Shown: positions 17,101 to 63,975 of the stretch, in pieces
Numbering within the stretch: position 1 is the stretch's first letter
How the letters are laid out: every line of letters begins with the position of its first letter
IMG/VR virus record: IMGVR_UViG_3300009154_002711
Span: 91,515 to 155,514 of that record
Strand: one strand, 5' to 3'
DNA from: a virus
DNA length: 64,000 bases
Program-made: the position numbers and the translations under genes
The notes under the pieces: generated by a model
Told to the model about the DNA's origin: nothing
Databases searched by the model: none
Seen by the model: only the letters and a program-made list of their open reading frames with translations

Positions 17101-17772
17101 ATGTCTATTTTAAGTAAAGCGCCAGGGAATGCTGAATTAGTCCCATTTTCTGGATATGATTGTCAAGTATGGCTAGCAAACCAAGCAGATGGTAAACCAG
17201 TATTAGTGGGTGAATATACCTCTGGTACATTTACCATCAGAGATGCTACTGAAGCATACTTAACATTCAACCAAAGAATCCCTATGTATCTAAACGGAGA
17301 GATTCAGATTGCATGGGTATTAGAAAGAGGACTATTAGATCTAGGAATGATTCAAGAGATCTTTGGGGAAACCCAAATGACAAGAGCAGATAGATTTAAT
17401 AGAGGTCCCAGATTCTCTTTAACTTTTAATGTAAATGCAGATGACTTATCTTCTAGTGGTTTAGTATCAGGTAGTCCCGAAGGCTCCGGTGCTCAATCTA
17501 ACACCATTGATTTCTCTAAAGGGGGCTATGTTAATAATAACCCTAATGATTTAAGCTTCGCAGAAAGATACCCAGGATCTCCTACTACGGGTGCATTAAG
17601 ACCCAGATCTACATCTTCTAGACTTAAATTAGAGATGTGTAAATCAGATAGTTTTTCTATGGCAGCTATGTCAGGCCGACCTGTAGTAGCTACTCAGATT
17701 CAAGGACTAGCTGAAGGTTGGAAAATATTAGAGGGTAATAAAGGTTATAGTCCTCTTGGCCCCTTGTTCTAA
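17101..17772 (+). CDS. Tail tube protein
   Basis: 223 residues with a strong AAGGAG ribosome binding site just after the sheath gene, the classical sheath-tube order. The tube forms the inner channel of the contractile tail. The fold signature here is CQVWLANQADGKPVLVGEYT, then a T-rich strand, EAYLTFNQRIPMYLNGE, IQIAWVLERGLLDLGMI, and a closing IQGLAEGWKIL. The same signature recurs three more times in the next two genes. This copy is longest, with an insert at about 120-190 (Ser/Gly/Asn-rich). It is followed at once by a strong terminator, consistent with its being the abundant main tube protein. Confidence 0.75.
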   Translation: MSILSKAPGNAELVPFSGYDCQVWLANQADGKPVLVGEYTSGTFTIRDATEAYLTFNQRIPMYLNGEIQIAWVLERGLLDLGMIQEIFGETQMTRADRFNRGPRFSLTFNVNADDLSSSGLVSGSPEGSGAQSNTIDFSKGGYVNNNPNDLSFAERYPGSPTTGALRPRSTSSRLKLEMCKSDSFSMAAMSGRPVVATQIQGLAEGWKILEGNKGYSPLGPLF

Positions 17773-17795
17773 AGTTCGTAATCATAATCCTATAT

Positions 17796-17827
17796 TAGAC
17801 ACTGTAGCAATGCAGTGTCTATTTTTT
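17796..17827 (+). terminator. Rho-independent terminator after the tail tube gene
   Basis: Perfect 9-bp stem TAGACACTG / CAGTGTCTA with an eight-base loop, followed by six T residues. It lies between the main tube gene and two smaller tube paralogs and should cut their transcription. Confidence 0.85.
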
Positions 17828-17831
17828 ATGT

Positions 17832-17840
17832 TATACTTTT
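17832..17840 (+). promoter_or_regulatory. TATA-box promoter candidate before tube paralogs
   Basis: TATACTTTT ends 23 bases before the next start codon, directly downstream of the terminator. If active it would set an independent, lower transcription level for the two paralogs. Confidence 0.3.
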
Positions 17841-17863
17841 AAAGTAATATATAAACAACAACA

Positions 17864-18256
17864 ATGGAAGAATCTAAAGACTGGAAAGTTTGGGTAAGTA
17901 ATACAGAAGGGACCACGTTAGTAGGAGAATATAAGACAGGAACTTTTACTATTTACTGTAGTGTAGAACAAGAAATAATGACTATGGAAAGTAGAATACC
18001 TAAATATTTAGCCGGGGAAAAACAAATAAAATGGAAACTAGAAGACGGTAGTTTAGATCATGATTTAATTACTAAGTTACGCCCCGAAAGAAAATATAGT
18101 TCAGGAATACGATTCTTTATTACAGGAAATACTATAAACGGGCCAGTAAAGTTATCATCATTAGCCTCAGATTACTTTAATATTTCTGGTGAAGAGAAGG
18201 TATTAGATAGCACAACCATTGTTGGCTATGCAGAAGAATATGATATAATACAATAG
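17864..18256 (+). CDS. Minor tail tube paralog, single domain
   Basis: 130 residues, essentially one tube domain: WKVWVSNTEGTTLVGEYKTG, then SRIPKYLAGEKQIKWKLEDG, SLDHDLI, and a closing IVGYAEEYDI. It aligns by eye to the main tube protein over most of its length but lacks the Ser/Gly/Asn insert. Separated from the main tube by a terminator, it is probably a low-copy ring, for example a tube initiator or terminal ring at the baseplate or neck end. That role is inference. Confidence 0.65.
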   Translation: MEESKDWKVWVSNTEGTTLVGEYKTGTFTIYCSVEQEIMTMESRIPKYLAGEKQIKWKLEDGSLDHDLITKLRPERKYSSGIRFFITGNTINGPVKLSSLASDYFNISGEEKVLDSTTIVGYAEEYDIIQ

Positions 18257-18277
18257 TAAATTAAGGTAATAATAACA

Positions 18278-19150
18278 ATGCTTACAAATTGCAAGATCTG
18301 GGTATATTCCAAGAAAGGTTTATGTACAGGCACATCAACATTAGTTGGTAGATATGAAAAGGGAAACTTTAGTGCTGAGATTGTAGAAGAGGCCTATCTA
18401 GACCTTAGTAAAAGAGTACCTACATATTTGGGCGAGGTAAAAATATATTGGGAATTAGAAGATGGAAGTTTAGATACAGAACAAATCCTTAAGTTATCTC
18501 AACAAGATCCAACAATCAAATTCTTTATGACAGCTTGTACGGATGCCCCTATAACATCAGTCTCAGGCCTCCCATCCGAATCTCCTGGAATACTTAAACC
18601 AGGAATACTTGAATTTATTGAATGTAAATCTGATAGTTTCTTTGATCGGAACAATAAAGGCATTACATCTATTAAGGGCACCGCTGAAGGTTGGACAGTA
18701 GTACATGATATTAAATTTAACCTAGATTGTTTAAAAGTAGATAACTTAGCAACTAGATTATCTAAAGGTGAAACAGTAAAAGAAAGAGGGCACTTCAAAG
18801 TTTGGCTTAGCTTACGAGATATGCCTTGTGAAGTATTAGTGGGAGAATATAAGATTGGAGAAGCAAAGTATAATGTAGATTTAGGAGAAGACAATCCAGA
18901 TCCCTTAAGTAAATCTTCCTTCAAGACTAAAGTTAGTTGGAGATTTAGAGATGGCGAATTAGATTACGAACTTATTAATTGTTTACTAAAAAGAGCCAAG
19001 TATTATAATAGTCCTTATGAATTTTATATCATAGTAAATAGAAATAAACTATTTAATTTAGAATCTGAATTCCTTACTGAAGAAGCTGCTAAAGAAGCCA
19101 AAGAGAGTAAACTAATTACCGGAATTGCTAATGGTTATCAGAAACTATAA
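18278..19150 (+). CDS. Minor tail tube paralog with duplicated tube domain
   Basis: 290 residues containing two tube-like domains in tandem. The first, 1-148, has CKIWVYSKKG, TLVGRYEKGNF, VPTYLGEVKIYWELEDGSLD and IKGTAEGWTVV. The second, about 165-290, has FKVWLSLRDMPCEVLVGEYK, VSWRFRDGELDYELI and ITGIANGYQKL. Domain two is more diverged and lacks the RxPxYL motif. A fused pair in one chain could turn a sixfold ring into a trimer of pairs, as seen where contractile systems change symmetry. The gene precedes a TnpB element and, behind it, a terminator that probably once closed this operon. Confidence 0.65.
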   Translation: MLTNCKIWVYSKKGLCTGTSTLVGRYEKGNFSAEIVEEAYLDLSKRVPTYLGEVKIYWELEDGSLDTEQILKLSQQDPTIKFFMTACTDAPITSVSGLPSESPGILKPGILEFIECKSDSFFDRNNKGITSIKGTAEGWTVVHDIKFNLDCLKVDNLATRLSKGETVKERGHFKVWLSLRDMPCEVLVGEYKIGEAKYNVDLGEDNPDPLSKSSFKTKVSWRFRDGELDYELINCLLKRAKYYNSPYEFYIIVNRNKLFNLESEFLTEEAAKEAKESKLITGIANGYQKL

Positions 19151-19249
19151 TTTAACCTTATTCTGGACTCAATCCTACTTCATCTGCTCGTGTGGCGGGG
19201 TCACTATTGACACCCTCAAAAAGTACATCTAGAACCAAGGGAAAGAAGC

Positions 19250-20476
19250 ATGAGAATCACCTACCAGTACCGGATGCGCCCACCCCCTAACCAAGAAGCC
19301 ACAATGCTTGATTGGTTAGAACTGTTACGGAAGCAGTACAACTACCACTTGGGTGAGCGTCTGGACTGGGAACGGCTCAATAAATGCCCTGTAGACCGTT
19401 GCTCTATTATCAGTTGTCCAATTGCCCCACCCAAAGACAGACCTAGCTATTACAGCCAACAAAATGACCTACTCAATACCAAGAAGCTGTTTCCTGAGTA
19501 CAAAGCTATTCACTCTCAGGTACTTCAAGATTGCGTAAAACGTATTGACCGCACTTGGCAGCGATTCACTCAAGGGGACAGTAACGGTAAGCGGTCAGGC
19601 CGTCCTCGATTCAAAAGCAAAGGCCGCTATCACTCATTCACTTACACCCAGATGAAACCAGGATGCTTGGATGGGAAACTGCTTACCCTGCCCAAGCTGG
19701 GAGTCATCAAGCTTATTTTGCATCGTCCCATCCCAAACGGCTTTGTTATCAAAACCGCTACCGTCACGCATCGGGCGGACGGGTGGTATGTGTCCTTATC
19801 CTTGCTCTGTGATGATGTGCCCCTTTTGGCTCCAGACCCAAACCCAGAAAATACGATAGGGATTGACTTAGGGCTAAAGGCGTTCCTGGTCACATCTGAA
19901 GGTGAAGAAGTTGCTATTCCACAACATTACCGCAAAGCTGAGAAGAAGCTAAGGCGCATACAACGTCAGCTATCCAAGAAGAAAAAGGGCAGCAACAACC
20001 GCAATAAAGCCCTACGCCGGGTTGCCAAATTGCAGCAACGCACGGCTAACCAACGTAAAGATTTTCACCACAAGACAGCTTCTAATCTTGTGGTAAAGCA
20101 TCAGGTCATTGCTCATGAAGACCTGAACATCAAAGGCTTGGCAAAGTCCAGACTAGCCAAGTCAGTCAATGATGCCGGATGGGGTCAATTCCTGTCAATT
20201 CTCGCTGTCAAAGCTGCAAATGCTGGACGGATGACGATAGCAGTGAATCCAAACGGCACAAGTCAAGAATGTTCTAGCTGTGGAACGCACGTCCCCAAGA
20301 CCTTAGCCGACAGGTGGCATAACTGCCCTAGCTGTGCCCTGAGTCTTGACCGTGACCACAATGCAGCCCTGAACATCAAACAAAAGGCGGTGGGTCATCC
20401 CGTCTCTGCTAGGGGAGGCTTCCAGGATGCTGGGCCAATGAACCTAGAAGCCCGCTCTATACCGCTTTGCGGTTAG
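19250..20476 (+). CDS. tnpB: TnpB RNA-guided endonuclease
   Basis: 408 residues, intact. TnpB is the RuvC-type, omega-RNA-guided DNA nuclease of IS200/IS605 elements and the relative of Cas12. The RuvC triad is present: D206 (TIGIDLGLKAF), E290 (IAHEDLNIKGL) and D369 (LDRDHNAALNI). A zinc ribbon CSSCG...NCPSC lies between the last two. The N-terminal half (KCPVDRCSI, PSYYSQQNDL, IHSQVLQD) has the wedge/recognition region, in a form I associate with cyanobacterial TnpB. Codon use (CGC, CCG, CTG, GTC) differs sharply from neighbours, so it was acquired recently, probably from the host. All catalytic residues being kept suggests it is functional. Confidence 0.9.
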   Translation: MRITYQYRMRPPPNQEATMLDWLELLRKQYNYHLGERLDWERLNKCPVDRCSIISCPIAPPKDRPSYYSQQNDLLNTKKLFPEYKAIHSQVLQDCVKRIDRTWQRFTQGDSNGKRSGRPRFKSKGRYHSFTYTQMKPGCLDGKLLTLPKLGVIKLILHRPIPNGFVIKTATVTHRADGWYVSLSLLCDDVPLLAPDPNPENTIGIDLGLKAFLVTSEGEEVAIPQHYRKAEKKLRRIQRQLSKKKKGSNNRNKALRRVAKLQQRTANQRKDFHHKTASNLVVKHQVIAHEDLNIKGLAKSRLAKSVNDAGWGQFLSILAVKAANAGRMTIAVNPNGTSQECSSCGTHVPKTLADRWHNCPSCALSLDRDHNAALNIKQKAVGHPVSARGGFQDAGPMNLEARSIPLCG

Positions 20477-20493
20477 AGTCGGGAGTATGTCAC
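20380..20493 (+). ncRNA. Candidate omega-RNA (tnpB 3' end and right end)
   Basis: In IS605-type elements the guide RNA scaffold overlaps the tnpB 3' end and the element's right end, and the guide is the flanking DNA just outside. The hairpin at 20455-20478 followed by GGGAGTATGTCA is in the right place. The guide would begin at about 20492-20494 with TAAACTAAATAACACT, which is phage sequence. The 5' limit is a guess; no expression evidence is available. Confidence 0.45.
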
Positions 20494-20514
20494 TAAACTA
20501 AATAACACTTTAAG

Positions 20515-20535
20515 ACTAGGCCCTGCCTAGTTTTC
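20515..20535 (+). terminator. Rho-independent terminator after tube paralogs/TnpB element
   Basis: Perfect 7-bp stem ACTAGGC / GCCTAGT with a three-base loop, followed by TTTTC. Its AT-rich surroundings are phage-like, so it probably belonged to the tube-paralog operon before the TnpB element entered. Confidence 0.75.
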
Positions 20536-20550
20536 TAGTATTAAGTAGGA

Positions 20551-50360: not shown

Positions 50361-50846
50361 ATGGCTATTTCATTAACAAGTAACGTATACGTTGGTCCAT
50401 ATCCCGAGAGTCCCAATGCATACGGCCGTACATCTGTCCAAGCTTTAGGAGATTTAATTGCTACCAGTGCTACAACTGCAATTGCAGCAGTAAATAAAGC
50501 AACTACTCTTCAACGTAATGCTGTTACAGTACAACCAGTAACAAACACCTTTGCTATTGATTTTAGTTTGGGTGATACTTTTATCCTAAACGTTGGAGCA
50601 GCTACTGGAAACATTACAGTTAGTTTTCCTACTAACGTTCCTACAAAAGCTGTTCAATTTAATATCTTATTTGTTCAGGGTAGTACCGCAAGAACAGTTA
50701 CCTTTACTGGTGCTTATAAAAACACTCCTACTTTAACTGCTTCTGCTAACGCACAAGACTTTGTTGAAGCAATTTACTTACCTGCTACTACACTTCCCAC
50801 AACTACAGCTAAAGTAATCTGTCAGAACACCCTAAACATTGCGTAA
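50361..50846 (+). CDS. Head- or tail-surface protein candidate
   Basis: 161 residues. A helical middle (LGDLIATSATTAIAAVNKA) is followed by a beta sandwich-like C-terminus (SLGDTFILNVGAATGNITV, FVEAIYLPATTLPTTTAKV). The strand pattern NxFAIDFSLGDTFILNVG is typical of phage decoration or fibre-tip domains. More balanced codons than neighbours suggest strong expression. No family is named. Confidence 0.5.
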   Translation: MAISLTSNVYVGPYPESPNAYGRTSVQALGDLIATSATTAIAAVNKATTLQRNAVTVQPVTNTFAIDFSLGDTFILNVGAATGNITVSFPTNVPTKAVQFNILFVQGSTARTVTFTGAYKNTPTLTASANAQDFVEAIYLPATTLPTTTAKVICQNTLNIA

Positions 50847-50874
50847 TTCTGATTTTAGTAGTTAGGAGTTTAAT

Positions 50875-51195
50875 ATGGTAGCACCTTTTCAATCCAATAT
50901 AACTGCTCCTGTAGCAGGTTCTGCTGCGCCCAGTTCAATAGCAACGCCTGTAAAACTAGCAGCTAACTTTACTCCTGTAAGTACATTAGTAATTACAGCT
51001 ATTAGACCTACTAGAGTAACTAATACAGGAACAGTTTATATAGGAATTTCTTCAACCAATGACACACAGTTAATACCATTAGCTCCTGGTGCATCTATCA
51101 CATTAAACTGTGGACCAAAGACATTACTAGATGTCTCCACATTATGGGTAGATGCCACAACTGCTACAGATGGAGTATGTTGGTTAGGAATCTAG
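50875..51195 (+). CDS. Small beta-barrel structural protein candidate
   Basis: 106 residues with TTAGGAG upstream. Strands throughout (STLVITAIRPTRVTNTGTVY, TQLIPLAPGASITLNCGPKT), with a layout typical of small phage head-tail or decoration proteins. It lies between a surface protein candidate and the tape-measure gene. Unidentified. Confidence 0.5.
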   Translation: MVAPFQSNITAPVAGSAAPSSIATPVKLAANFTPVSTLVITAIRPTRVTNTGTVYIGISSTNDTQLIPLAPGASITLNCGPKTLLDVSTLWVDATTATDGVCWLGI

Positions 51196-51216: not shown

Positions 51217-51248
51217 ATAATAGTATTACTATTTGAAATTACTATTAT
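51217..51248 (+). promoter_or_regulatory. AT-only hairpin over the tape-measure start codon, with TATA-like box
   Basis: TAATAGTA (51218-51225) is complementary to TACTATTA (51240-51247), whose last A is the first base of the start codon; one more A-T pair and a G.T pair extend it. No Shine-Dalgarno is present. The left arm plus one base (TAATAGTAT, 51218-51226) also lies exactly 20 bases before the ATG, the spacing of the other promoter boxes, so the repeat may be a promoter rather than an RNA structure. Confidence 0.4.
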
Positions 51249-54200
51249 GGCTAGTACAAATGAACAATTAAGAGCACTAGGAATAACAGGGGAGGTATAT
51301 AACACCTCCTCTCGTTCTAGTGTTCTTTTTACATCAAGAGGAACTAGCACAAAAGCATTTGATAGGTTACTAACTAACGGCAATAAAATAACTAATGTAT
51401 TACAATACCACATAAATCCTACAGGAGCATTAGGTGGAAAGCTAGTTAATAATGCTACTAATATTTATAGAGCAAATGATTATAATTCTAGACGCCACCC
51501 AGACAGTAGAATTAAACAAGTCCCTAATTATATAGAAGGACCAACTAGAGATAGTTATACTCACATTAAGTTGTATGGGGGCACCAAGACTTCCATGTTC
51601 AGTACTTCAGGTGCTGGAGGTGGAAATACTCAAGACTTTGGAGAAGAGAGTGAGATAAACCTAAACTATATTTCTCCTAAGCTAAATAATCTAGAACGGA
51701 CATTTGTTAAAGATTATTTAAGTGGCAATGCTAAAGATCAGTATCATGATAAAGATATAGCTTTATACTATCAAGATTATAAAACCCCTGGCATTAGTAC
51801 AGAAGAAGCTAAGTTAATTAACGCTGCCCAAAAGGGTGACACTATTAATATAGGTAGTGCCACTTTAAGTAGTAATAGTATTGTGGGTGCTGCACTAGAA
51901 GCTGCTTTAGCTAGGGGTGCACAAGTTAATATTGCTACTACCGTTGATGGAAGTAATACAACAACTACAGCAAGAACACTAAGTCACTATTCAAACTTAG
52001 GTGCAACAGTATTCCCTACTAATGTAGATGGAGTTATACTCCATGCTAACTTCTTAGGAATTAAATATAAGAATAAACCTGAAGTAAGTTTAATAACTTC
52101 TTTTAGAGCAAGTGCTAAGGCTCAAAGTACTTATGGAGAAACTCAAACTAACCTAGCCATAGAACTCCATGGAGCAGAAGCTTCCAGTATTAATAAATAT
52201 ATAAATTCTGTATTATTCAAACCAGGAAATGGCCAAGCACCCAGTGCTGTAGGAATTGGTAATAGATTAGCTGAACTGGGTAATTCAAATTATCTAAGCG
52301 CATTAGTTAATATGAGTGATGCAGTTAATGTTCTTTATACTATCCAAGCAGATATTAGTGGAGATTTATTAACCAGATATTACAGTGCTAATCAACAAGG
52401 ATTAACTGGTAGAGCCAGACAGATATATTTAACTCAACCCATCTTTACTGGAGAGCCTGTAGCAGAACAGTTATATTATGTAACTAGAGGAAGTGCTGCT
52501 CCTAGTTACGTTAAGGTATTAGATACTATTAGAAGTAGTCCAACTATTTATAATGCTATTAATGGATTTGTGAATCAAGCTGTAAGACCTAAAGATGAAA
52601 CAGCTTTTGGGGCATTTGCTTTTGGCTTCTTAGGGGGACAAGGAGGATTCTTTAAAGGAAATGAGAATCCTATTCTATCTATATTAGCGGCACCAGCAAG
52701 AGGAATAGATAATCTATTCCGGACTCAACGAGCGCCTTTTAATAATGGTGTTTATGGAGCATTAATAGCAGGTAGCATTGGTTCTATTACTGCAGGAGTT
52801 ATAGTAAGACAACGCTTTAATAATAATCTAGGATTTATAGCAGGAGCATTAATAGGGGGAAGTATTGGAGCAGCAATGAACCAAACTCCATCTAATATGT
52901 TTAGTACTCCTGGAGTTAAACTAATGGCATTAAACAAAGCTAATAAAGGAGATTTGCAAGATACTAATGCTCCCGGCCCAGCAGAAAGTCTTATTGGAAA
53001 TCTATTTAATTCTGTACAATCTGTAGGATTATCCGCATTAATGTATGGAATACAATCTAGAATTGCACCTTTAGTAATGGATTATATATTCCAAAGCAGT
53101 GCTACTACTGCAGCTTTGATGAATAATATTAGTGAAGATCTAAGTAAAATGCCTCCGGGTACTTCTAATGTATCTAAATTCTTTAGAAGTATTGGAGTCT
53201 TTGGTGCTAAAAGTGTTGGACTTGTTAATACTATTGGTAACTTAAATAGTATTCGTAGAGGAATTGCTATTGGTAACTTAGGATTATATGGATCCTTTGC
53301 TAGAGATCTCTTTGGATTAGATATGTTAGTCCAATTAAATAGACCTATAGGTAATGCTACAGGAAATTATACTCATGGAGTTGAAGTCTATCATAAAATA
53401 GGAGCTGAAAATCCTGGTGTTCTTATTAGACCAGGAGATGATTTTAGAGGTAAGTTAGATCCTATTTTAGATAAAGGTTATAATATCCAACTAAGTACAG
53501 TTTCAAGAGATCCTGAAATCTTACGTCAATATGGTAGAGGAATATTCCGGGAATCTAGTTCATCGGGGTTATTGGGAAGAGTTAATAAGAAAGTTATAGC
53601 AGAGGCGTTAAATACTATTCTAGACTTAAACTCCAGAATACATTTAAAAGATGGAACCTTTGGATTAGCACATACTACTTATGGTAGAGCATTTGGTACA
53701 GTAGACCAAGAGTTAACCGGAGACTTAAATACACGATTAAATACTGATATTGAAAGCTTTATTAAAACACATCATCCAACTGCTACCGTATTAGAAATAG
53801 CGGAAATAAAACGCAGGATAATATTTGGTAACGAAGTAGAGATAAATGGAAATAAAGTACGAGCACCAACTTATCAATACCTTACTGAGGCTGGTATAGA
53901 TAATATAGATAGATTGTTTGGATATTACAGACAAGGAATGAATATCTTAGGAGCTATTTATGTTAACCCCATGATATTTGCTCTCGGGAACAAACCAAAA
54001 GATACTTCATTAACCATTAAGGATTTACTAGCTGCTATTCAAGAAGGAACCTCTAATGTATTTGGATTACCTTTAAACTTATTTGATAATGATGATAAGT
54101 TAAAAGCACTATTTAAAAGTAATAATGATGAGGGGCCTCTTAAATACTTTAGTAGTAAAGGCAAAGCCATTATTCAATTGTTTCTACAAGATGCTAGTAA

Positions 54201-57200
54201 CAAAAGTATATCTGCAGACTTATCAACAAACTTAAATACTAATGATAGAGAGGTAAGATCACTAAGGGGATTCTTTGGTAAAGAATCTAGTGCGCTTGGA
54301 GAAAAGATAGCTTTATTAGGAGCTGAAAATAAATTAGCTCTTAGAGGATTAGCTGGATTAAAGTTATTAGGAATGACACTACCACTTACTTTAGTAGGAT
54401 TAGCTTTAGGAGATCAACCAGGAAACTCTTTAACTACAGCTACTACAATGTTATTTGATCAACTACAAAACGGACCATCTCTATATGGATCTAAGCTATT
54501 AGGAGGTCTAGCAAAAGTAGGTGGAATTAATCAAGACTATTTTACTGGAGGTGTTAAACCCGCATTAGGGTTTAGTTTAAATCCATTTTATTTAAAGAGA
54601 GCAGGCATCGCCACAAATCCTAATGGAACTCCTTTAATGTATTCCGATGGTACCTATCAGTATGTAGATAAAGGAAGAGACTGGAAAGAAGATCTGCAAT
54701 TAACTGGGCAATTATCTTTAGAAATTGGTGGAGGTCTTTTAGCTTATAATGCTATTAAACATGGAGTAGGATTAGCTACTGATTTAGCAGATTTAAAAGC
54801 AGGAGGTACTCGCAGCTTAGAAAGAATTATTGGGAGTAGATTAAATAGATTAGCTGGAGAAACTGTATTACCCGCATTAGCCTTACTTACCTTTGGAGCC
54901 GTAGATACGGCTGTGGATAGTCTAGTACAAAAGGTAAGTCCTTATGGAGTTAACTATGGCATGTCCTTTATGTTACTTAGTGGTGTTGCTGGAGCAGGTA
55001 TAGGAGCCGTATTTAATAAAGATTCAGGGCGTATTAAAGCAGGTGCTAAAGGGGCAGTTGGTGGATTATTACTGGGTGCGGTAGCAACCATGATTGCAGA
55101 GTTTGCTACTACATTAGGTGTAGATGCAATTAGAGGTGCCGCTGGATTAATCTCTGGAAGACCTATAGATGATGCAGTAATGAATAATACTGTAGAAGGT
55201 TCTCTAAGAAATACTTATAGATATGCTTTAAGTATTGGAGATATGGCAGGAGCTATTAGAGCTAGAGCAGAAATGCAAAGTATGGGATTCTATATAGATA
55301 ATTCTAATAGTAGATTAAGTCATTCTATAGCTACACAGTTAGGAACAACTCCGGTAGCACAAAATGCTATCTCTTTAAATATAGATAATAGTGGAGCAGT
55401 CATACCTACTCTTAGTTTCCAATTACCTTTATTAGGCTTTGGAGTTAATTTAGAATCACCTGTAAAGTTTGCCTTTAGATCTAACCAACAATTATTATTA
55501 GCTAGGGATCCAGATCAGAATTATAGTAAGGTATATGAAGGTGGTTTAGTATTACCACAACAATTAGGAATGCCTAATATGTTAGGTATGGGATTAGGAG
55601 CCATTGCTGGTATAGCAGCTAAAGGAGCCTTTACTAGATTCGGATTACCAGCAATAGTTCCAATGGCTCTTGGAGGACTTATTGGAGGATTTGGATTTAA
55701 TGCTTATAACAGCCTTACTAATAAAGATAAACCAAAACAAGGAAGTCTAAGTATTGAATACAATTCTGGTAATGATTTAGAGAAGTTAATGTTAGGTTAT
55801 ACAGCAATAGCTCCTATATTAGTAAGCAGTCAATTAATCAGTGGTGCTTTTATCAACACGGGTATTGGATTAGCTAATAGTTCCACAAATGAACTAGTAC
55901 AAAAAGCTGGAGGTACTCTAATAGGTTTAGGATATAAAATAAGTACTAATCCTATAGTTAGCGCTGCTCGAATGATGGGAGGGCACGCTAATAATTTAGT
56001 AGGTGGACAATGGGGATTATTTAATAATACTTATGGATTAATTAATAGAGACCGAGGAATTCCAGTTATCCCATTAAATGATAAATTACCCGGGGGTAAA
56101 ATTCCAGAAAGGTCCGTAACACATTTACCAGCATTCTTAGTAAAAGGTATAGGTAAAACAGTTAAGTATGCAGCAGCTTATATGTTATTATCTAACATGT
56201 TTGATTTAAATAAGACTATACCTTTAGGAAATGGTAATACAATACCCACATTATTTAGTCCTACAGCAGCCTTAATTACAGGAACTTATGCTAGCTTAAA
56301 ATACGGTCCTAGATTATTACCAGAAGGTAGTATAAAAGAGTTTGCTAATATTATTGGTGGAAGTAGAAGTAGAGCATTAACCTCTATGTTCGCTGTTATA
56401 GGGGCAACAGCATTATATACTTTAAGTGCACAAACCACAAATGGAATTCCAACACCAAGAAAGTCTGTAGCAGCATTAAATAACATTGCAAGTATTCCTT
56501 TTATAGGAAACCCTCTAGCTAAGATAACTGACTTCTTCTATGGAGTTAGTAGAAATGCATCTATACAAGATAGATACACAGTTATCCCTACAGTATTTGG
56601 AGGAATTCGTACAGGAACAAATACCAATTCATTACTTACCGGAGATTTTGGAAGTCCTATTGTAAGAAAGCGTGGTGGTGCTGGTCTTATTACTTCTGAT
56701 ATAACCACAGCATTAAGTTCAGGATCTTTTAGTGGATTATTATATTTAGGTGCTGCCCAGAACACTACATTAACTATTACAGGTAATCAAGGATCTAGTT
56801 TTACTAAAATGGGCAATTACACATTACCCAGAAATAGCTATGTGCAGATGATTTTCCAAGGAGCAGATTTATCTTATGCCTATAACTTATTACCCAGCGG
56901 AGATAAAGCACAAAAACAAAGAGCATTAGCTAGATTTAATGTAATCAAAAATGCTGGCCCTAATCCTAAGAACATATTAAAGGCATTAAATACGCAACGC
57001 CCCGGATTCAGTCAGCAAGATTATAGAACTAGTTCCCCATTATTTAGTTCAGCTACTTTAAAAGCAGTTCATTCTGAGTTAATATTAGCTGCATTAAAAC
57101 AGCGGCAATTTGTCACTGAATATATCTTAAAGAATCCTTCTGAGGATATCACAAGTTATTTAGATAGTTTAGGTGTAGATAAAATGCTTAATGGGATAGG

Positions 57201-60200
57201 TGCTTTAAGTAAGCAAGTCATCCTACCTGTGCGCGGTAACTTCTACTGGAACAGAACTGCTGTAGGAGGCCCTGTAGGAGCCGGCCCAACAGGACATCCC
57301 TATTTTATTGGTGGTGGGGAAGTAGATACCAGTGCTCAATTAACCTTACAGAACTTTAATTATAATAGTTTACAAACTGTACAAAATGCCGCGGCTAATG
57401 ATAAAGCATTAACTATATTTAATCTTGGATTAATAAGTCTTAGTGGATTAATATTAGCAGGACCTTTACTGGGTAATCTATTTACTAATGCCTCTAGAAG
57501 AACAAATATTGATAGATACGTGGCTGAAGGTGGTGGTCAGCGTTCTATGATTAACATAGGAGCTTATAATACAGAGCGGGGAGGCAACCAATTATTAGCA
57601 AAAGTAGCCTTATCTGGTGCTGGGGATAGTAATCTGGGTACTTTAGCTTATCTTGGGGGCTTACCTATTTATCATACTGATGTTATACCAGGTAGTTATA
57701 AAACCGCATATGACAACGTTTCAAAGAATATATCAGAATTATATGTGGGAGACGCGCAACGAAAGCTTAATACTATAGACAGAAATAACATCGCTTCAGT
57801 TAAAGAGTTTGCTGAATTAATCCATGGAAAGCTAACAGACTTACGTAACTCAATGTTCACAGGCTCTGAGAATATTACGAATGAATTAAACGCACGGCCG
57901 GATATTGTAGCTAAATTTGATCCACATAGAGATAGAAATAGATTAGCTAAAATATCTGAATTAGATAAAGTATTAGCCGGATTACGAGCTGATATAGATT
58001 CCGCAGTAGATCCGCATAGATTATTAGAAAAGACTCTAAGCCGTAGAGAGCCATTTAGAGATGTAAGTGCTGCGGGGGTATTTAAACTGATGGGCTTTGA
58101 AGTAGACCCGGGTGGTAATACTTTAGCCAGAATGGCTACATGGTTTGGAGAACGAATTCCAGGAGCTAAAAGTATATATGATTTTATCCGCCCTAATAAA
58201 TTAACCAAGGCAGCTAGAGCAGAAGATCCTCTAAGACTACACACTATGAGTAGTGCAGAATCTGATCGGATATTAAACGGTTTAGGTGTTAAAGAAAGCG
58301 AGCGGATTAAAGCTAGTATCTTTACAGATGTGGAAAATCAAGTAGCCGGGAAAACCGCATTAAGGATTATGGGAAGTACTGGTGCAGGTGTTATTGGAAC
58401 CTTACAGAACTTAGCTATTACAAGTATGTTCTTAGATGTTGGGGATAGTAGGCGCAGTATGGTTTATAGAGAAAACCAAGCAACAACAGCGCTTGAAACC
58501 ACTTCTTTATTCTTAGGTACTCATATGGCTACTCAAGTATTAACTACTGGAGGAAAAGCCGCATATGAATTAGCTACTACTGGAACAATGAATAGAGTAG
58601 GATTAGTCGCTATGTTTGCCAACCCTGAAGTAAGTTGGCTCCCCGGCCTTTTTATAGCCGGTGCCACCATGTTTGGTCCAACAGTATTAGACTGGATGGA
58701 TCATATGGGTGTACCCGGGATTAAAGGCTTCAAACAAGGTGTAGGAAGTAATCTAGAACGTGCTGCTAATTGGGCAGATAAAGGATTAAATACTAACCAA
58801 AGTGTAGGGAGTACTTCTTTAGGATTCGCGGCATTAACAGCCTTAACTATCTTTACTGCAGGTGGAGGTTTCATTGCTGCGGGAGTGGCCGGAGGTGTAG
58901 TTGCAGCCGCTAACTCTTTAGCTAATAAAGGTACTAAGGCTACCCCTGCCCAACAATTAGCTAATACTCTTCAAGCAATACAGAATATTCCTGGAATTGG
59001 TCCTAATGTTATAAGACCTATATGGGAAAAAGCTAATGACTTATTTGAGAGTACTTATCAAACTTTAGCAAATCAAATTAGAGGAGGCTTACAAGCAGAT
59101 CCTAAGAGTTTCTGGTGGGGTGTTGCTGAAGGAATAGTAGAAGGTTCTTCTGGAAGAAATCTATTTGAGGATAGAACTAAAATAAACAGTGCTCAGAGTA
59201 TGTTCTTAAGTGGTTATTATAGAGGTTCTCCACTATTCAGTGTTAATAATAGAGACTATAAAGCTTTAGGATATGACGCTAACTACCAGAAGTTCCTAGC
59301 AGATACACATGAGCAGGAACAAAGTAGATTAAACACAGACACATTAATTAGCACAAGAATATTACACAAGACTGTATTAAACGGTATAGCATATTCTGGA
59401 GATTATCAAGATGAAGTCTTTGCTAATAGATTAATGGGAGGAAGTCAAGGAAGAATCTTTACTAAAGGTAGTAGAGCTATAGATAATCTATTAATGCTTT
59501 CTATTACTAGTAGAGCAGAAGATACTCAATGGGTATTTGGATCTGTATATAACCGAGCTGTAGAAAGAGAAACTATTAAGAATAGTGGTGTAGCTATAGG
59601 AGCTATGCTACTACCTACATTAGGTGCTATGGCTACGCTAGGTGGTGCTGGCTATATAGCCAGCAGAGCAGCTAAGCGAGGTCGTCCACCAAGTTCAGGA
59701 GGTCTTACTGAACCTGAGGCACCAAAACCTAATCTACCTGATCCACCTAATCAAGGAGTTCTATTAGAAGAGAGGCCTGCATCACAAAGAAGAGTATTAA
59801 CTCAAGCGGAGCAAACTCATGACTTCTTAATATGGCGTAATGAAACTGCTGAAGGTAAAATTGCATATAAGAATCATGGCGTACATGCTAGGGGTATATA
59901 TAATAAATTATATGGAGTTACGGGGCATCAATCTAGTGAGGCTTATGTAAAACCTTTAATGGGTAATGAGGCCCAGCATGATTATAGGCTATGGTTACAA
60001 ACTGCTGAAGGTAAAGCCGCCACTATAGAAGGCAAAGGTAGTTTTGATGATTACTTTGACTTGTTTGGATTTAAAGGTCATCAACCTAAACCTAGTCCAC
60101 AACCAGTAATACAAAATAAGTTAAATCCAGAGCAGTACTTAGAGTCAGCAAAGCTTGCAGCTACTCGCCCCTCAGTTCAAGGTCCTGCAAAGAATCCTAC

Positions 60201-63200
60201 AACTAGTCCATTAAGCACTCCTACTGCTCCATTAGCAGCGCCTATTAGTACTCCTGTAGCACCAGTAGTTAATCAATTACAGCCGCCAAGTGATGTCACA
60301 ACAACTCCTTTAACACTAGAAACAACTCCACATACACCAATCACTAATAGAAGATCATACACTTTGGGAGAGCATACACAAGGATTAGGAGGTTTAGTAC
60401 TCGGGGTAGGTTTAGTTGCTACTGCTTGGTCTTTTAGAGAAGCTCAAATGACTAACTTTAAAGACACAGATGCTGATACAAATCTCTTTATTAGTTCAGC
60501 AGGAGTAGCAACACAACTTCTGGGAGGTAAAGCAGGAGTAATTGGTAATACCATTTTAGGTATAGGTATGATTGGACTACAAGCTAAAGTTGCTGCAGAG
60601 AACCAATGGAAGAATCAAGAAGCTAATGCAAATGTAGTAGGAATTGGAAGTAATATATTAGGTAACTTAGCTGGATTTACTGCTTTAAGTGCAGTGGCAG
60701 AAGGTTTAGGAGGAGTAGCTGGTATAGCTGCAGGAGTGGGAGCAACAACAGGATTAGCAGCAGCAGCCGTCCCAATAGCAATTGGTGCAGCAATATTAGG
60801 CGGCGCCGCACTTATAGGGGCAACAGCAGAGTGGATTGGAAAAGGAATATATAATAATGTAACCAAACCACAGCCCGTATCACAGGTCTCAAAACCAGTT
60901 ACAGTTAGTAATAAATATGTTAATGTGGCCCCTGTATATAAAAATCCAGTTAGTAATAATATACAAGTAGATAAAACCAATACTGATTATATTAGTGTAT
61001 ATCATTCTAATAGAAGCCCAGTAAGTACAAGAGTGCATTTAGCTAATACTGGTAGTCCACCTATTAGTGATTATGTTGGTATGTATCATTCTAATAGAAG
61101 TCCTATAAGTAGTAAATTAAGTCTACCTAAACCTGTTCCACATATAGCAGAGTATGTAAGTAAGTACTCGTCTAGTAGAAGTCCTATTAGTAGTAAACTG
61201 CCTTTAACTAAAGTTACTAGTTCACCAATTATCAAATATCAATCTACTAGAAACCCAACCAGTACTAGAATAAATCTATCAAATCCTATTAGCAGTTTTA
61301 TTGATAGACCAGCTCACTTTAATAATCTTAATCCCGCTGAATATGTAAGTAAATATGTATCAAATAGAAGTCCTATTAGTACTAAAATTAATCAACACAA
61401 AACTAATACTTTAGGTTCAGTTAGTAATACAAAACATATTAATACCAATCCATATTATGCAGTGATTGCTCATGTAGATGATGATAGAATAAATAGTAAT
61501 CTTATAGATACAAGACAACTAACATCTTTAAACCAACTTAAGGAAACTTTAGTTAGTATCAAACATAAAGCTAATGGACAACATGTAATATTAGATTTAG
61601 ATACTCATGGTATAGAAGGAAGAGGCTTCGCATTTACAAAAACTGCGCATGGTAAGACTACAGTTAGCGCAATGTCTGCTAAATATCTTAATAGACAATT
61701 GTATGAAGCTGGGTTTAAGAAAGATGACATCACAGTTATTTTAGAAACTTGTAATGCTTATTTCTCTTATAATAGTTCAAAGAGTGGATTCAAAGCTACT
61801 TCAAAAAGTGATATTGAAAAAGCAGAATCTAGAATAAATTCTAGTAAAGCTACAGCTACCTTATTAGACACTAATAAAGAAACACCCATAGAGTATAAAA
61901 TGTATGGGCGCCGGTCAGGTAATTACGAATACTTAGCATTAGCACAATATGTAGGAAATGTAGAATTACAGGGTCCAGCTAATAGAACAGAGATTGTTGA
62001 AGTGCATGGAAATTATAAAGGCTCTGTAGATACCAACTATCCACTGACGTTCCTAAATATACACGATCAAATAATCGCAAGTATAAATTCAAACTATATT
62101 GAACAATATCCTTCTGGCAGAAGCCCTGTAAGCACAAAGCACAGTAAAAATATATTCCAAAATATCTTTGAGTTCTTCTTCGGTAAGCCTGTTGCAGCAG
62201 ATACTTTAAAGGATCCAAGTAATTGGTTAACTAATAGTCAATACACAGCATTAACCAAAACTGCAGGCGCTAGTAAATTAGAGCAGAGAGTTAATAAGAG
62301 TCTACCTGCATTAAATACTAAAGGAACGCCTCTACAAAGTATTCAGAAGAAACCTAATACATTAGACTATATACAATCCGCTACTATGAACTTCTTTGAT
62401 CAGATAAAAGAAGACTTTAATTATATTCTAAATAGAGTTGGTAGTGGTTTAAATAAAATAGGTAATGGAATTGGCCATGCTATTTCTAATTCAGTAGATG
62501 GTATTGGAAAACTATTCGGCAAAAGCTCACAAACCTTTGACCAACAATCCCCAACGTTAATGGCAAATCTTATGAGAGATTTCAGTCTCACAAAGGAACA
62601 AGCCGCGGGAATAGTAGGTAACTTAGGTCATGAGTCTGCGGGGTTACAAGCAGGTATACATCACATTGGATCTACAAGCAGTAATGCGGGTATAGGTTGG
62701 GCACAATGGGTTGGACCCAGACGTAAAGCCTTTGAGCAATACTTAACTATGACCAATCAAAAGGCTACTGATGCAAATGCCAATTACGGCTTCTTAAAGC
62801 AGGAATTAATGGGGCAATACAGAAGTGCCATTAAAGAAGTCAGAAAGCAATCTACCGTACACAACTCCATGGTTGTATTCGAGAAGATTTACGAAGGGGC
62901 TGGTATAAAGAATTATGCTAGCAGAGAAAGATATGCTAACCGCGCTTTAGCTACATTGGGTAGTATATCTACCACAGCAACAGTTAGTAATAATTCAGAA
63001 GCACTATTCCCTATAGTTGGGTACAGCTCTTTAACAGCTCCTGTAAGAGGTCAATTTGGTACCCAGAGGCCCGGGCATGTACACCAAGGTACTGATTATG
63101 GTATCCCAGTAGGAACAGGCCTTGTAGCCCCATTAAACGCCACTGTAAGTGAAGCCGGAAGTAATTCCAGTATGGGTAATTACATTAGATTAAAAGCATT

Positions 63201-63975
63201 AGATAATTCCGGTAGAGCTATTAAATATACCTTTATGCACTTATCTCAACTAGATGTACATAAGGGTGAACAAGTAGTAGCAGGACAGGAAATAGGTAAA
63301 AGTGGTAACTCCGGACATAGTACAGGAGCACACGTCCATATAGAAGTACAGCAAGGTAACTTGAATATAGATCCGGCAGCATATTTTGGTAAGCGCGCTG
63401 GAGTAAGTAAAGTAGCACAAGTTGTGCCTAAAGGGGAAACAAAGACTAGTAATAGTAACCAAACCCAAAGTGCTATTGATCCTTATACCGGACAGTATAG
63501 AGGAGAAGTATATGATGGAAATACTTTAAACAGTATTAAAAGATATGTACCAACCGGTAGAGGCTATAAGTTAGATATCCTTAATGGTTCTGAAGTAGTA
63601 GTTATAACAGATGCTAATAATAATACACAGCATCAGCATATTAATTTAGATATGAAACCTAAAGTTAATATGAGTGTAATGTCACCCACTATAGTAAGTC
63701 CAGTTAAAGCTACCCCTATAATTCCTACTAAGCAGAATAAAGTAAAGACTACTATTAAAGTAGTAGTTACACCAACTTGTTATAAGGAGGAGATGATTAG
63801 TAGAGGGCAGATACAATTAGATACAGCTAAATCTCCTACTCCAATAAGTCATAGTGCTAAGGCTGTCATAGTAGTAAATAAAGATGGAAAGGCCAATCAA
63901 GTTATGCATGAAGAAAGAGCCACTGAATTAACAATGGCTCAATGCGGGATCCCCAATTTTCAATACAGAGCTTAA
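51247..63975 (+). CDS. Giant tail tape-measure protein with PLD-like, caspase-like, lysozyme and M23 domains
   Basis: 4242 residues. Tape-measure proteins set tail length and are carried inside the tube. (1) About 195-310: phospholipase-D-like fold with GDTINIGSATLSSNSI and AALEAALARGAQVNIATTVD, then ILHANFLGIKY, where H266 is kept but the HKD lysine is N268. (2) About 490-3080: helices and Gly/Ala-rich hydrophobic segments (GALIAGSIGSITAGVIV, ALGGLIGGFGFNAY), with a duplicated motif at 2858 and 2911. (3) About 3247-3630: RSPxS[TS]K repeats surrounding a caspase-like domain, H3454 (LDTHGIEG) and C3502 (LETCNAYF). (4) About 3768-3912: phage tail lysozyme, E3796 (GNLGHESAG). (5) About 3930-4045: M23 endopeptidase with H3946/D3950 and HVH 4029-4031. 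It is the last gene here; AAGGAG at 63987 starts another. Confidence 0.85.
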   Translation: MASTNEQLRALGITGEVYNTSSRSSVLFTSRGTSTKAFDRLLTNGNKITNVLQYHINPTGALGGKLVNNATNIYRANDYNSRRHPDSRIKQVPNYIEGPTRDSYTHIKLYGGTKTSMFSTSGAGGGNTQDFGEESEINLNYISPKLNNLERTFVKDYLSGNAKDQYHDKDIALYYQDYKTPGISTEEAKLINAAQKGDTINIGSATLSSNSIVGAALEAALARGAQVNIATTVDGSNTTTTARTLSHYSNLGATVFPTNVDGVILHANFLGIKYKNKPEVSLITSFRASAKAQSTYGETQTNLAIELHGAEASSINKYINSVLFKPGNGQAPSAVGIGNRLAELGNSNYLSALVNMSDAVNVLYTIQADISGDLLTRYYSANQQGLTGRARQIYLTQPIFTGEPVAEQLYYVTRGSAAPSYVKVLDTIRSSPTIYNAINGFVNQAVRPKDETAFGAFAFGFLGGQGGFFKGNENPILSILAAPARGIDNLFRTQRAPFNNGVYGALIAGSIGSITAGVIVRQRFNNNLGFIAGALIGGSIGAAMNQTPSNMFSTPGVKLMALNKANKGDLQDTNAPGPAESLIGNLFNSVQSVGLSALMYGIQSRIAPLVMDYIFQSSATTAALMNNISEDLSKMPPGTSNVSKFFRSIGVFGAKSVGLVNTIGNLNSIRRGIAIGNLGLYGSFARDLFGLDMLVQLNRPIGNATGNYTHGVEVYHKIGAENPGVLIRPGDDFRGKLDPILDKGYNIQLSTVSRDPEILRQYGRGIFRESSSSGLLGRVNKKVIAEALNTILDLNSRIHLKDGTFGLAHTTYGRAFGTVDQELTGDLNTRLNTDIESFIKTHHPTATVLEIAEIKRRIIFGNEVEINGNKVRAPTYQYLTEAGIDNIDRLFGYYRQGMNILGAIYVNPMIFALGNKPKDTSLTIKDLLAAIQEGTSNVFGLPLNLFDNDDKLKALFKSNNDEGPLKYFSSKGKAIIQLFLQDASNKSISADLSTNLNTNDREVRSLRGFFGKESSALGEKIALLGAENKLALRGLAGLKLLGMTLPLTLVGLALGDQPGNSLTTATTMLFDQLQNGPSLYGSKLLGGLAKVGGINQDYFTGGVKPALGFSLNPFYLKRAGIATNPNGTPLMYSDGTYQYVDKGRDWKEDLQLTGQLSLEIGGGLLAYNAIKHGVGLATDLADLKAGGTRSLERIIGSRLNRLAGETVLPALALLTFGAVDTAVDSLVQKVSPYGVNYGMSFMLLSGVAGAGIGAVFNKDSGRIKAGAKGAVGGLLLGAVATMIAEFATTLGVDAIRGAAGLISGRPIDDAVMNNTVEGSLRNTYRYALSIGDMAGAIRARAEMQSMGFYIDNSNSRLSHSIATQLGTTPVAQNAISLNIDNSGAVIPTLSFQLPLLGFGVNLESPVKFAFRSNQQLLLARDPDQNYSKVYEGGLVLPQQLGMPNMLGMGLGAIAGIAAKGAFTRFGLPAIVPMALGGLIGGFGFNAYNSLTNKDKPKQGSLSIEYNSGNDLEKLMLGYTAIAPILVSSQLISGAFINTGIGLANSSTNELVQKAGGTLIGLGYKISTNPIVSAARMMGGHANNLVGGQWGLFNNTYGLINRDRGIPVIPLNDKLPGGKIPERSVTHLPAFLVKGIGKTVKYAAAYMLLSNMFDLNKTIPLGNGNTIPTLFSPTAALITGTYASLKYGPRLLPEGSIKEFANIIGGSRSRALTSMFAVIGATALYTLSAQTTNGIPTPRKSVAALNNIASIPFIGNPLAKITDFFYGVSRNASIQDRYTVIPTVFGGIRTGTNTNSLLTGDFGSPIVRKRGGAGLITSDITTALSSGSFSGLLYLGAAQNTTLTITGNQGSSFTKMGNYTLPRNSYVQMIFQGADLSYAYNLLPSGDKAQKQRALARFNVIKNAGPNPKNILKALNTQRPGFSQQDYRTSSPLFSSATLKAVHSELILAALKQRQFVTEYILKNPSEDITSYLDSLGVDKMLNGIGALSKQVILPVRGNFYWNRTAVGGPVGAGPTGHPYFIGGGEVDTSAQLTLQNFNYNSLQTVQNAAANDKALTIFNLGLISLSGLILAGPLLGNLFTNASRRTNIDRYVAEGGGQRSMINIGAYNTERGGNQLLAKVALSGAGDSNLGTLAYLGGLPIYHTDVIPGSYKTAYDNVSKNISELYVGDAQRKLNTIDRNNIASVKEFAELIHGKLTDLRNSMFTGSENITNELNARPDIVAKFDPHRDRNRLAKISELDKVLAGLRADIDSAVDPHRLLEKTLSRREPFRDVSAAGVFKLMGFEVDPGGNTLARMATWFGERIPGAKSIYDFIRPNKLTKAARAEDPLRLHTMSSAESDRILNGLGVKESERIKASIFTDVENQVAGKTALRIMGSTGAGVIGTLQNLAITSMFLDVGDSRRSMVYRENQATTALETTSLFLGTHMATQVLTTGGKAAYELATTGTMNRVGLVAMFANPEVSWLPGLFIAGATMFGPTVLDWMDHMGVPGIKGFKQGVGSNLERAANWADKGLNTNQSVGSTSLGFAALTALTIFTAGGGFIAAGVAGGVVAAANSLANKGTKATPAQQLANTLQAIQNIPGIGPNVIRPIWEKANDLFESTYQTLANQIRGGLQADPKSFWWGVAEGIVEGSSGRNLFEDRTKINSAQSMFLSGYYRGSPLFSVNNRDYKALGYDANYQKFLADTHEQEQSRLNTDTLISTRILHKTVLNGIAYSGDYQDEVFANRLMGGSQGRIFTKGSRAIDNLLMLSITSRAEDTQWVFGSVYNRAVERETIKNSGVAIGAMLLPTLGAMATLGGAGYIASRAAKRGRPPSSGGLTEPEAPKPNLPDPPNQGVLLEERPASQRRVLTQAEQTHDFLIWRNETAEGKIAYKNHGVHARGIYNKLYGVTGHQSSEAYVKPLMGNEAQHDYRLWLQTAEGKAATIEGKGSFDDYFDLFGFKGHQPKPSPQPVIQNKLNPEQYLESAKLAATRPSVQGPAKNPTTSPLSTPTAPLAAPISTPVAPVVNQLQPPSDVTTTPLTLETTPHTPITNRRSYTLGEHTQGLGGLVLGVGLVATAWSFREAQMTNFKDTDADTNLFISSAGVATQLLGGKAGVIGNTILGIGMIGLQAKVAAENQWKNQEANANVVGIGSNILGNLAGFTALSAVAEGLGGVAGIAAGVGATTGLAAAAVPIAIGAAILGGAALIGATAEWIGKGIYNNVTKPQPVSQVSKPVTVSNKYVNVAPVYKNPVSNNIQVDKTNTDYISVYHSNRSPVSTRVHLANTGSPPISDYVGMYHSNRSPISSKLSLPKPVPHIAEYVSKYSSSRSPISSKLPLTKVTSSPIIKYQSTRNPTSTRINLSNPISSFIDRPAHFNNLNPAEYVSKYVSNRSPISTKINQHKTNTLGSVSNTKHINTNPYYAVIAHVDDDRINSNLIDTRQLTSLNQLKETLVSIKHKANGQHVILDLDTHGIEGRGFAFTKTAHGKTTVSAMSAKYLNRQLYEAGFKKDDITVILETCNAYFSYNSSKSGFKATSKSDIEKAESRINSSKATATLLDTNKETPIEYKMYGRRSGNYEYLALAQYVGNVELQGPANRTEIVEVHGNYKGSVDTNYPLTFLNIHDQIIASINSNYIEQYPSGRSPVSTKHSKNIFQNIFEFFFGKPVAADTLKDPSNWLTNSQYTALTKTAGASKLEQRVNKSLPALNTKGTPLQSIQKKPNTLDYIQSATMNFFDQIKEDFNYILNRVGSGLNKIGNGIGHAISNSVDGIGKLFGKSSQTFDQQSPTLMANLMRDFSLTKEQAAGIVGNLGHESAGLQAGIHHIGSTSSNAGIGWAQWVGPRRKAFEQYLTMTNQKATDANANYGFLKQELMGQYRSAIKEVRKQSTVHNSMVVFEKIYEGAGIKNYASRERYANRALATLGSISTTATVSNNSEALFPIVGYSSLTAPVRGQFGTQRPGHVHQGTDYGIPVGTGLVAPLNATVSEAGSNSSMGNYIRLKALDNSGRAIKYTFMHLSQLDVHKGEQVVAGQEIGKSGNSGHSTGAHVHIEVQQGNLNIDPAAYFGKRAGVSKVAQVVPKGETKTSNSNQTQSAIDPYTGQYRGEVYDGNTLNSIKRYVPTGRGYKLDILNGSEVVVITDANNNTQHQHINLDMKPKVNMSVMSPTIVSPVKATPIIPTKQNKVKTTIKVVVTPTCYKEEMISRGQIQLDTAKSPTPISHSAKAVIVVNKDGKANQVMHEERATELTMAQCGIPNFQYRA
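59818..60087 (+). repeat. Two-copy 53-residue repeat inside the tape-measure protein
   Basis: Residues from H2858 and from H2911 share HD[FY]xxWxxxTAEGKxAxxxxG...[YD]xxLxGxxGHQ. The two copies are adjacent, with period 159 bases. Their nucleotide identity is modest, so the duplication is not recent. The unit is unlike the hydrophobic segments around it; it may be a small folded domain. A Pro/Thr-rich linker follows. Confidence 0.6.
60985..62140 (+). repeat. RSPxS[TS]K linker repeats flanking the caspase-like domain
   Basis: Units of the form [DEN]Y[VI]xxYxSxRSP[VI]S[TS][KR] start at residues 3247, 3275, 3302 and 3365, with a weaker unit near 3330 (KYQSTRNPTSTR). One more follows the caspase-like domain at 3616 (NYIEQYPSGRSPVSTK). 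Spacing in the first set is about 27-35 residues. They are Tyr- and Ser-rich, basic and probably unstructured linkers. Confidence 0.75.

Follow-up and report, generated by a model that had tools for sequence, protein, structure and literature searches.

A putative clan CD-like cysteine protease domain within a giant virion protein of a likely cyanobacterial virus

A giant protein at the end of the structural genes

The window analysed here, a stretch of 64,000 nt, forms the terminal part of a 155,514 nt virus record (IMG/VR IMGVR_UViG_3300009154_002711). The same virus is represented by a second assembly of 212,497 nt, IMG/VR 3300010885_025649, with 99.94-99.96% identity over the three stretches compared. 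Homologs of the tail sheath, the tail tube and several head or neck proteins occur in the Microcystis phage Ma-LMM01 and the Microcoleus phage My-WqHQDG. Loci matching a tail-tube profile numbered 30 in viral contigs, of which two belong to the window virus, and one more was located in the assembled genome of the cyanobacterium Elainella saxicola. The host of the window virus is likely to be a cyanobacterium. Three successive open reading frames (ORFs), at 17101-17772, 17864-18256 and 18278-19150, all match one tail-tube protein of Ma-LMM01 and the Microcoleus phage, such that the tube gene seems to have been triplicated. The tail sheath, encoded at 13518-17090, is 1190 aa long, as opposed to 774 aa in Ma-LMM01, and as BLAST homology is confined to its two ends it probably contains a large central insertion.

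The gene considered here encodes a protein of 4242 aa, the features of which are as follows (all on the + strand):

51247-63975, +: giant virion-module protein, 4242 aa, intact ORF, with three cysteines (residues 3502, 4178 and 4233)
51811-52125, +: N-terminal PLD-like domain (PF13091), residues 189-293
52750-60831, +: body rich in Gly and Ala, residues 502-3195, with seven hydrophobic segments
60994-61398, +: five R[SN]PxS[ST] repeats, residues 3250-3384, N-terminal to the protease-like domain
61447-61956, +: putative clan CD-like cysteine protease domain, residues 3401-3570, proposed from motif, homologs and C14 alignment
61606-61608, +: His3454 (THG), predicted catalytic residue, invariant in a three-member family
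61750-61752, +: Cys3502 (ETCN), predicted nucleophile, invariant in the family and the only cysteine in residues 1-4177
62101-62151, +: sixth repeat (RSPVST), residues 3619-3635, separating the protease-like domain from the lysozyme
62563-62952, +: phage tail lysozyme (PF18013, E = 4.8e-22), residues 3773-3902
63079-63375, +: Peptidase M23 (PF01551, E = 1.6e-19), residues 3945-4043

The PF13091 match falls under the gathering score both for the N-terminal part alone (E = 7e-4) and for the whole protein (E = 0.007), and the position of the lysine in the HKD motif is occupied by asparagine (HAN); the PLD-like domain is probably degenerate. An HKD-like motif is present near the N-terminus (first 600 aa) of Ma-LMM01 gp080 and in several relatives, where the window protein has HAN. 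At the opposite end, the lysozyme and M23 domains follow the same order as in phrog_11037 (365 positions), which we take to be a phi29 gp13-type lysozyme plus M23 tail enzyme and which covers residues 3779-4042 (E = 4.4e-7); by contrast, the module here lies near the C-terminus of a 4242 aa protein, behind the protease-like domain. The giant protein probably helps to breach the cyanobacterial cell wall. When ORFs of at least 60 residues were searched across the whole 155.5 kb record, the repeat motif was found six times, always within the giant protein.

The identification of this protein as a tape measure in the original prediction could not be established, the gene being the last of the rightward structural genes, around 32 kb downstream of the tube-like genes at 17101-19150, with no recognisable tail chaperones adjoining it. 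The two small ORFs that precede it are non-overlapping, and no slippery heptamer was found in 50700-50900, which is unlike the arrangement of frameshifted chaperones. Seven hydrophobic segments, together with the PF18013 and PF01551 domains, are compatible with a tape measure without constituting proof of one, and it is safer to speak of a giant tail or ejection protein that has a wall-degrading C-terminus.

In Ma-LMM01-like phages, each end of the structural module carries a giant protein of about 2,000-5,500 residues that is almost free of cysteine. The window virus shares this arrangement, in which one giant gene is divergent at the left end and the other is last before convergent genes. 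As the final rightward gene before leftward ones, the gene studied here occupies the place of Ma-LMM01 gp120 (2898 aa, no cysteine), of which its product is the positional counterpart. A second giant ORF of the window virus (3183 aa, no cysteine), running leftward from window position 550 to position 82516 of the full record, lies where Ma-LMM01 has gp080 (3562 aa). Two such giants were present in five of the six related records read through, the sixth, of 107 kb, having one. The window protein resembles gp080 in its N-terminal PLD-like domain and very low cysteine content, but differs in that no homology to gp080, gp120 or the giants of their relatives was detectable by BLAST. When it was compared with the relatives' last-gene giants by hhalign, three weak matches near one diagonal were returned (E = 0.0011, probability 20%) that were not reproduced with gp120 as master; homology to these proteins is only hinted at. 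PHROG 6700, the 2898 positions of which equal the length of gp120, was not equated with gp120, as the latter has no match to the window protein in M23. An ORF at 18911-20545 (- strand) of the 212 kb assembly, located downstream of the giant gene, has a translation that resembles a ribonucleotide reductase with an intein-like insertion.

A His-Cys pair conserved in free-standing proteins

The stretch HVILDLDTHGIEG, which begins at residue 3446 (nt 61582), contains His3454, and DDITVILETCNAYFS, which begins at residue 3493 (nt 61723), contains Cys3502. Both residues are found exactly where the original prediction had placed them, 48 residues apart in an intact ORF of 4242 aa. Simple propensities give the order strand, strand-HG, helix, strand-Cys, helix, strand, as required of a clan CD core, with mean strand propensity exceeding that for helix both before HG (1.23 against 1.08) and before Cys (1.29 against 1.05). 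The strand-HG...strand-Cys pattern has one match in the 48,562 ORF residues of the 155.5 kb record and two in the 321,502 ORF residues of six related records. Approximately 0.03 matches to the bare motif are expected per 4242 residues, the length of this protein, and the sequence scanned was long; by itself the bare motif is weak evidence, and these figures leave room for the likeness having arisen by chance in a spacer of this large virion protein.

The cysteine content of the protein points in another direction. Fifteen other giants of this phage group contain just two cysteines in 55,444 residues, a set selected as homologs of gp080, gp120, the Microcoleus ORF or one another (except for the second giant of the window virus, chosen by place alone) that includes one near-identical pair and some incomplete ORFs, and from which a 2611 aa ORF of G012 with 15 cysteines and shorter large ORFs with cysteines were left out. 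The retention of Cys3502 against such a near-cysteine-free background is as expected of a nucleophile.

A search with the domain across 386 Cyanobacteriota genomes gave 13 matches in 12 genomes at E <= 0.1, of which two, both in the same genome (G072), are real relatives: L054 (E = 3.5e-13, 30% identity) and L066 (E = 4.2e-7, 35% identity). The other 11 matches (E = 0.019-0.097), of which three were inspected (L055, L056 and L058), were dropped. Likewise, a profile search of 386 Cyanobacteriota genomes matched two, the second of which (G336, E = 0.0025) reads as an HlyD-type adaptor and was discarded. L054 and L066 stand alone as proteins of 378 and 342 aa, with start codons chosen by us, and carry no Pfam domain. 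The former is encoded beside genes for a histidine kinase, a T2SSE-type ATPase and efflux functions, and the latter beside tRNA-thiolation and pterin-binding genes, neighbours that do not give either the look of a prophage gene. The family is present in one of the 18 genomes of G072's class.

Both proteins keep the HG and the Cys, the latter being the sole cysteine in each, so that the predicted pair is conserved in two of two homologs, both from one genome. The spacing between His and Cys is 48 residues in the giant protein, 48 in L054 and 67 in L066. Residues invariant in all three members include H, G, G and G around the first motif, E, C and N (ExCN) in the second, and, following this, S, GF, K, D, Y, GR, G and N. 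The motif is placed beyond chance by the combination of Cys3502 as sole cysteine before residue 4178, the retention of His and Cys in the two homologs, the single cysteine and spacing of these homologs and the in-register orthocaspase alignment described below. The significance of the two homolog matches and the invariance of His, Gly, Glu and Cys argue strongly against a meaningless spacer, and a chance resemblance is very improbable.

The sequence of the domain matched no family in Pfam and NCBIfam at E values up to 10, and had no meaningful match in PHROG or among PDB sequences; a PADLOC scan returned 'VakA' at E = 0.012, which was disregarded. No match to PF00656 was found in the virus record. 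Searches by tblastn against phages (with flanks) and plasmids at E up to 1 retrieved nothing with the domain, and nothing with L054 and L066 except a single chance hit (E = 1) in a gene for AIR synthase. In genome contigs, none of 69 pattern stretches was confirmed as the domain. The motif pattern had three matches in viral contigs, one being the window virus and the other two having their halves in different frames, while two profiles confirmed one of 73 (A4) and one of 102 (A6) stretches in viral contigs, in each case the window virus. Among records related by their tail-tube loci, the domain was found in none of 18, one being a 7.9 kb fragment of the window virus, and the domain profile in none of 20 (17 viral contigs, two phage records and the Elainella genome); these searches covered 18 and 17, respectively, of the 30 tail-tube loci, in records that may be fragments. 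Over 185 residues the protease-like domain is identical between the window virus and the 212 kb assembly. The domain defines a small protein family spanning a phage and a Cyanobacteriota chromosome, which we read as a new, clan CD-like family of cysteine proteases, apparently a new branch at the level of a family.

Comparison with clan CD peptidases

As a yardstick for family C14, the 12 orthocaspase sequences of the Elainella genome were used, representing all 12 loci found, of which L049 and L052 are missing at least one of the two catalytic residues and L050 has an internal stop. The window-virus domain alone aligned to this set with a score of 30.9 (pairwise E = 4.4e-4, HHsuite probability 34%), placing HG over HG and Cys over Cys; this score was reached by none of 200 shuffles (maximum 25.2) and none of 371 decoy phage sequences (maximum 21.7). 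With the same settings, the three-row family profile also aligned in register (score 23.0, E = 0.012), exceeding all of 200 column shuffles (maximum 20.6) and all of 126 three-member phage decoy families (maximum 19.4).

The C14 alignment depends on the rows and settings employed. L054 and L066 without the window sequence aligned out of register, with a score of 22.8 or 24.2 according to the setting. Under the column rule M 50, with 12 C14 rows, four of five query sets were in register and the homologs alone failed (22.8, 27 columns), while under the rule 'first', in which the first C14 row is the master, only the window-virus domain by itself kept even HG on HG, over 16 columns. The three-row profile fell out of register when the C14 set was enlarged to 17 rows. 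No signal was obtained when the family profile was compared with C25 (four sequences, L087 left out) or CHAT-like sets (seven sequences), five of the 17 loci of the underlying search having been left unused; a set of C13-search loci comprised five, with L068 left out. There is no invariant His after the Cys in the three members, so the Cys-then-His order of papain-like enzymes is a misfit.

In common with caspases, metacaspases and bacterial orthocaspases (C14, PF00656), the domain has a hydrophobic strand ending in HG, a second ending in [DE]xC, and the His before the Cys. It differs in having no Pfam-model match, a shorter stretch from the first strand to HG and, in our reading, CN(A/G/V) after the nucleophile position in place of the C(H/F/Y)(S/A)G of most of the 12. 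Of the caspase-like character originally proposed, the catalytic anatomy held up, through the conserved HG and Cys, the strand-like runs and the in-register C14 alignment, while the fold was not borne out by modelling: single-sequence AlphaFold models of the domain had pLDDT values of 38.5 and 41, making them unusable, and both of these very-low-confidence models placed the Cys segment in a helix and not a strand. A Foldseek search with the first model gave no caspase among 50 of 102 matches listed, all at E > 1, a result that is meaningless at such confidence. Judged from its sequence, the domain is likely to have a caspase-type (clan CD) fold, a judgement already well inclined that way and strengthened slightly by the window-alone alignment scoring above all shuffles and decoys.

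Could the domain instead be something other than a protease, for instance a different alpha/beta domain such as a hydrolase, or an inactive structural relative? The lack of any family profile match and the low confidence of the AlphaFold models would accord with this. So would the occurrence of HGxxG as the oxyanion motif of alpha/beta hydrolases, and sub-significant phmmer matches to such hydrolases (E = 0.34-1.8), the best of which spans both His and Cys. However, that best alignment sets DLDTHG on the GHSMSG elbow, with Asp at the position of the Ser nucleophile, and two alignments to KAI2-like hydrolases stop short of the His. That a single Cys is retained, both in a protein otherwise depleted of cysteine and in the two homologs, points instead to catalysis, and the C14 alignment was in register above all decoys. 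We regard a non-protease as unlikely, and the domain as probably possessing catalytic activity.

A possible release mechanism for the wall-degrading module

Repeats lie on both sides of the domain, and the lysozyme and M23 domains directly after it. In the mechanism we propose, residues 3401-3570 would form a caspase-type cysteine protease with a His-Cys dyad, in which His3454 and Cys3502 would be the catalytic pair. The protease would act on its own chain, cutting the RSPxS-repeat linkers on either side, and such cuts would separate the C-terminal wall-degrading module, of tail lysozyme and M23, from the hydrophobic giant body, either during assembly or on ejection. A new clan CD-type protease that cuts itself in the repeats and so frees the lysozyme-M23 module is the best explanation of the locus as a whole, with the balance for and against it about even. 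Three roles had originally been suggested, namely maturation of the tape measure, action on a host protein once ejected and triggering of a host death pathway; self-processing fits the architecture best, and nothing was found in favour of the death pathway.

Autoprocessing domains of family C80 in large toxins likewise place a protease inside a large protein, upstream of an effector. In polymorphic toxins, internal caspase-like domains positioned immediately before the C-terminal toxin domains have been proposed to act as releasing peptidases (PMC3482391). The giant protein resembles the toxins of both kinds in housing its protease-like domain within a long multidomain chain, immediately ahead of an enzymatic effector at the C-terminus, but here the effector is a phage wall-degrading unit of lysozyme and M23, encoded where a structural operon ends, and the domain matches no Pfam family.

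A clan CD-like protease might alternatively have a host protein, or another phage protein, as its target after ejection, leaving its own chain uncut. That the two homologs are free-standing and lack Pfam domains suggests that the family does not need such a chain in order to act, and giant virion proteins with hydrophobic segments could themselves be ejected. On the other hand, the domain sits immediately before a wall-degrading module, with the same type of repeat on either side, which is the architecture of a releasing domain, and a foreign target seems rather improbable as an account of the locus. Taken as a separate question, cutting of its own chain and of another protein appear equally plausible to us.

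Cleavage after synthesis is a feature of some large tail proteins, among them the tape measures of phages lambda and T5. If the proposal is true, a built-in protease would offer a simple and testable answer to how and when large tail proteins are cut, and the 'releasing caspase' plan of polymorphic toxins would extend to phage virions. Among the open-access papers searched, no title indicated a phage tail or tape-measure protein with a caspase-like domain. The fullest form of the proposal, in which a giant virion protein has a member of a new caspase-type family built in to serve as a release switch at RSPxS repeats, the family being shared with free-standing bacterial proteins of the likely host phylum, is put forward tentatively, and cleavage within the repeats themselves is a somewhat doubtful component. 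Orthocaspases prefer Arg, and an Arg residue is found in all six repeats, which would suit such a preference.
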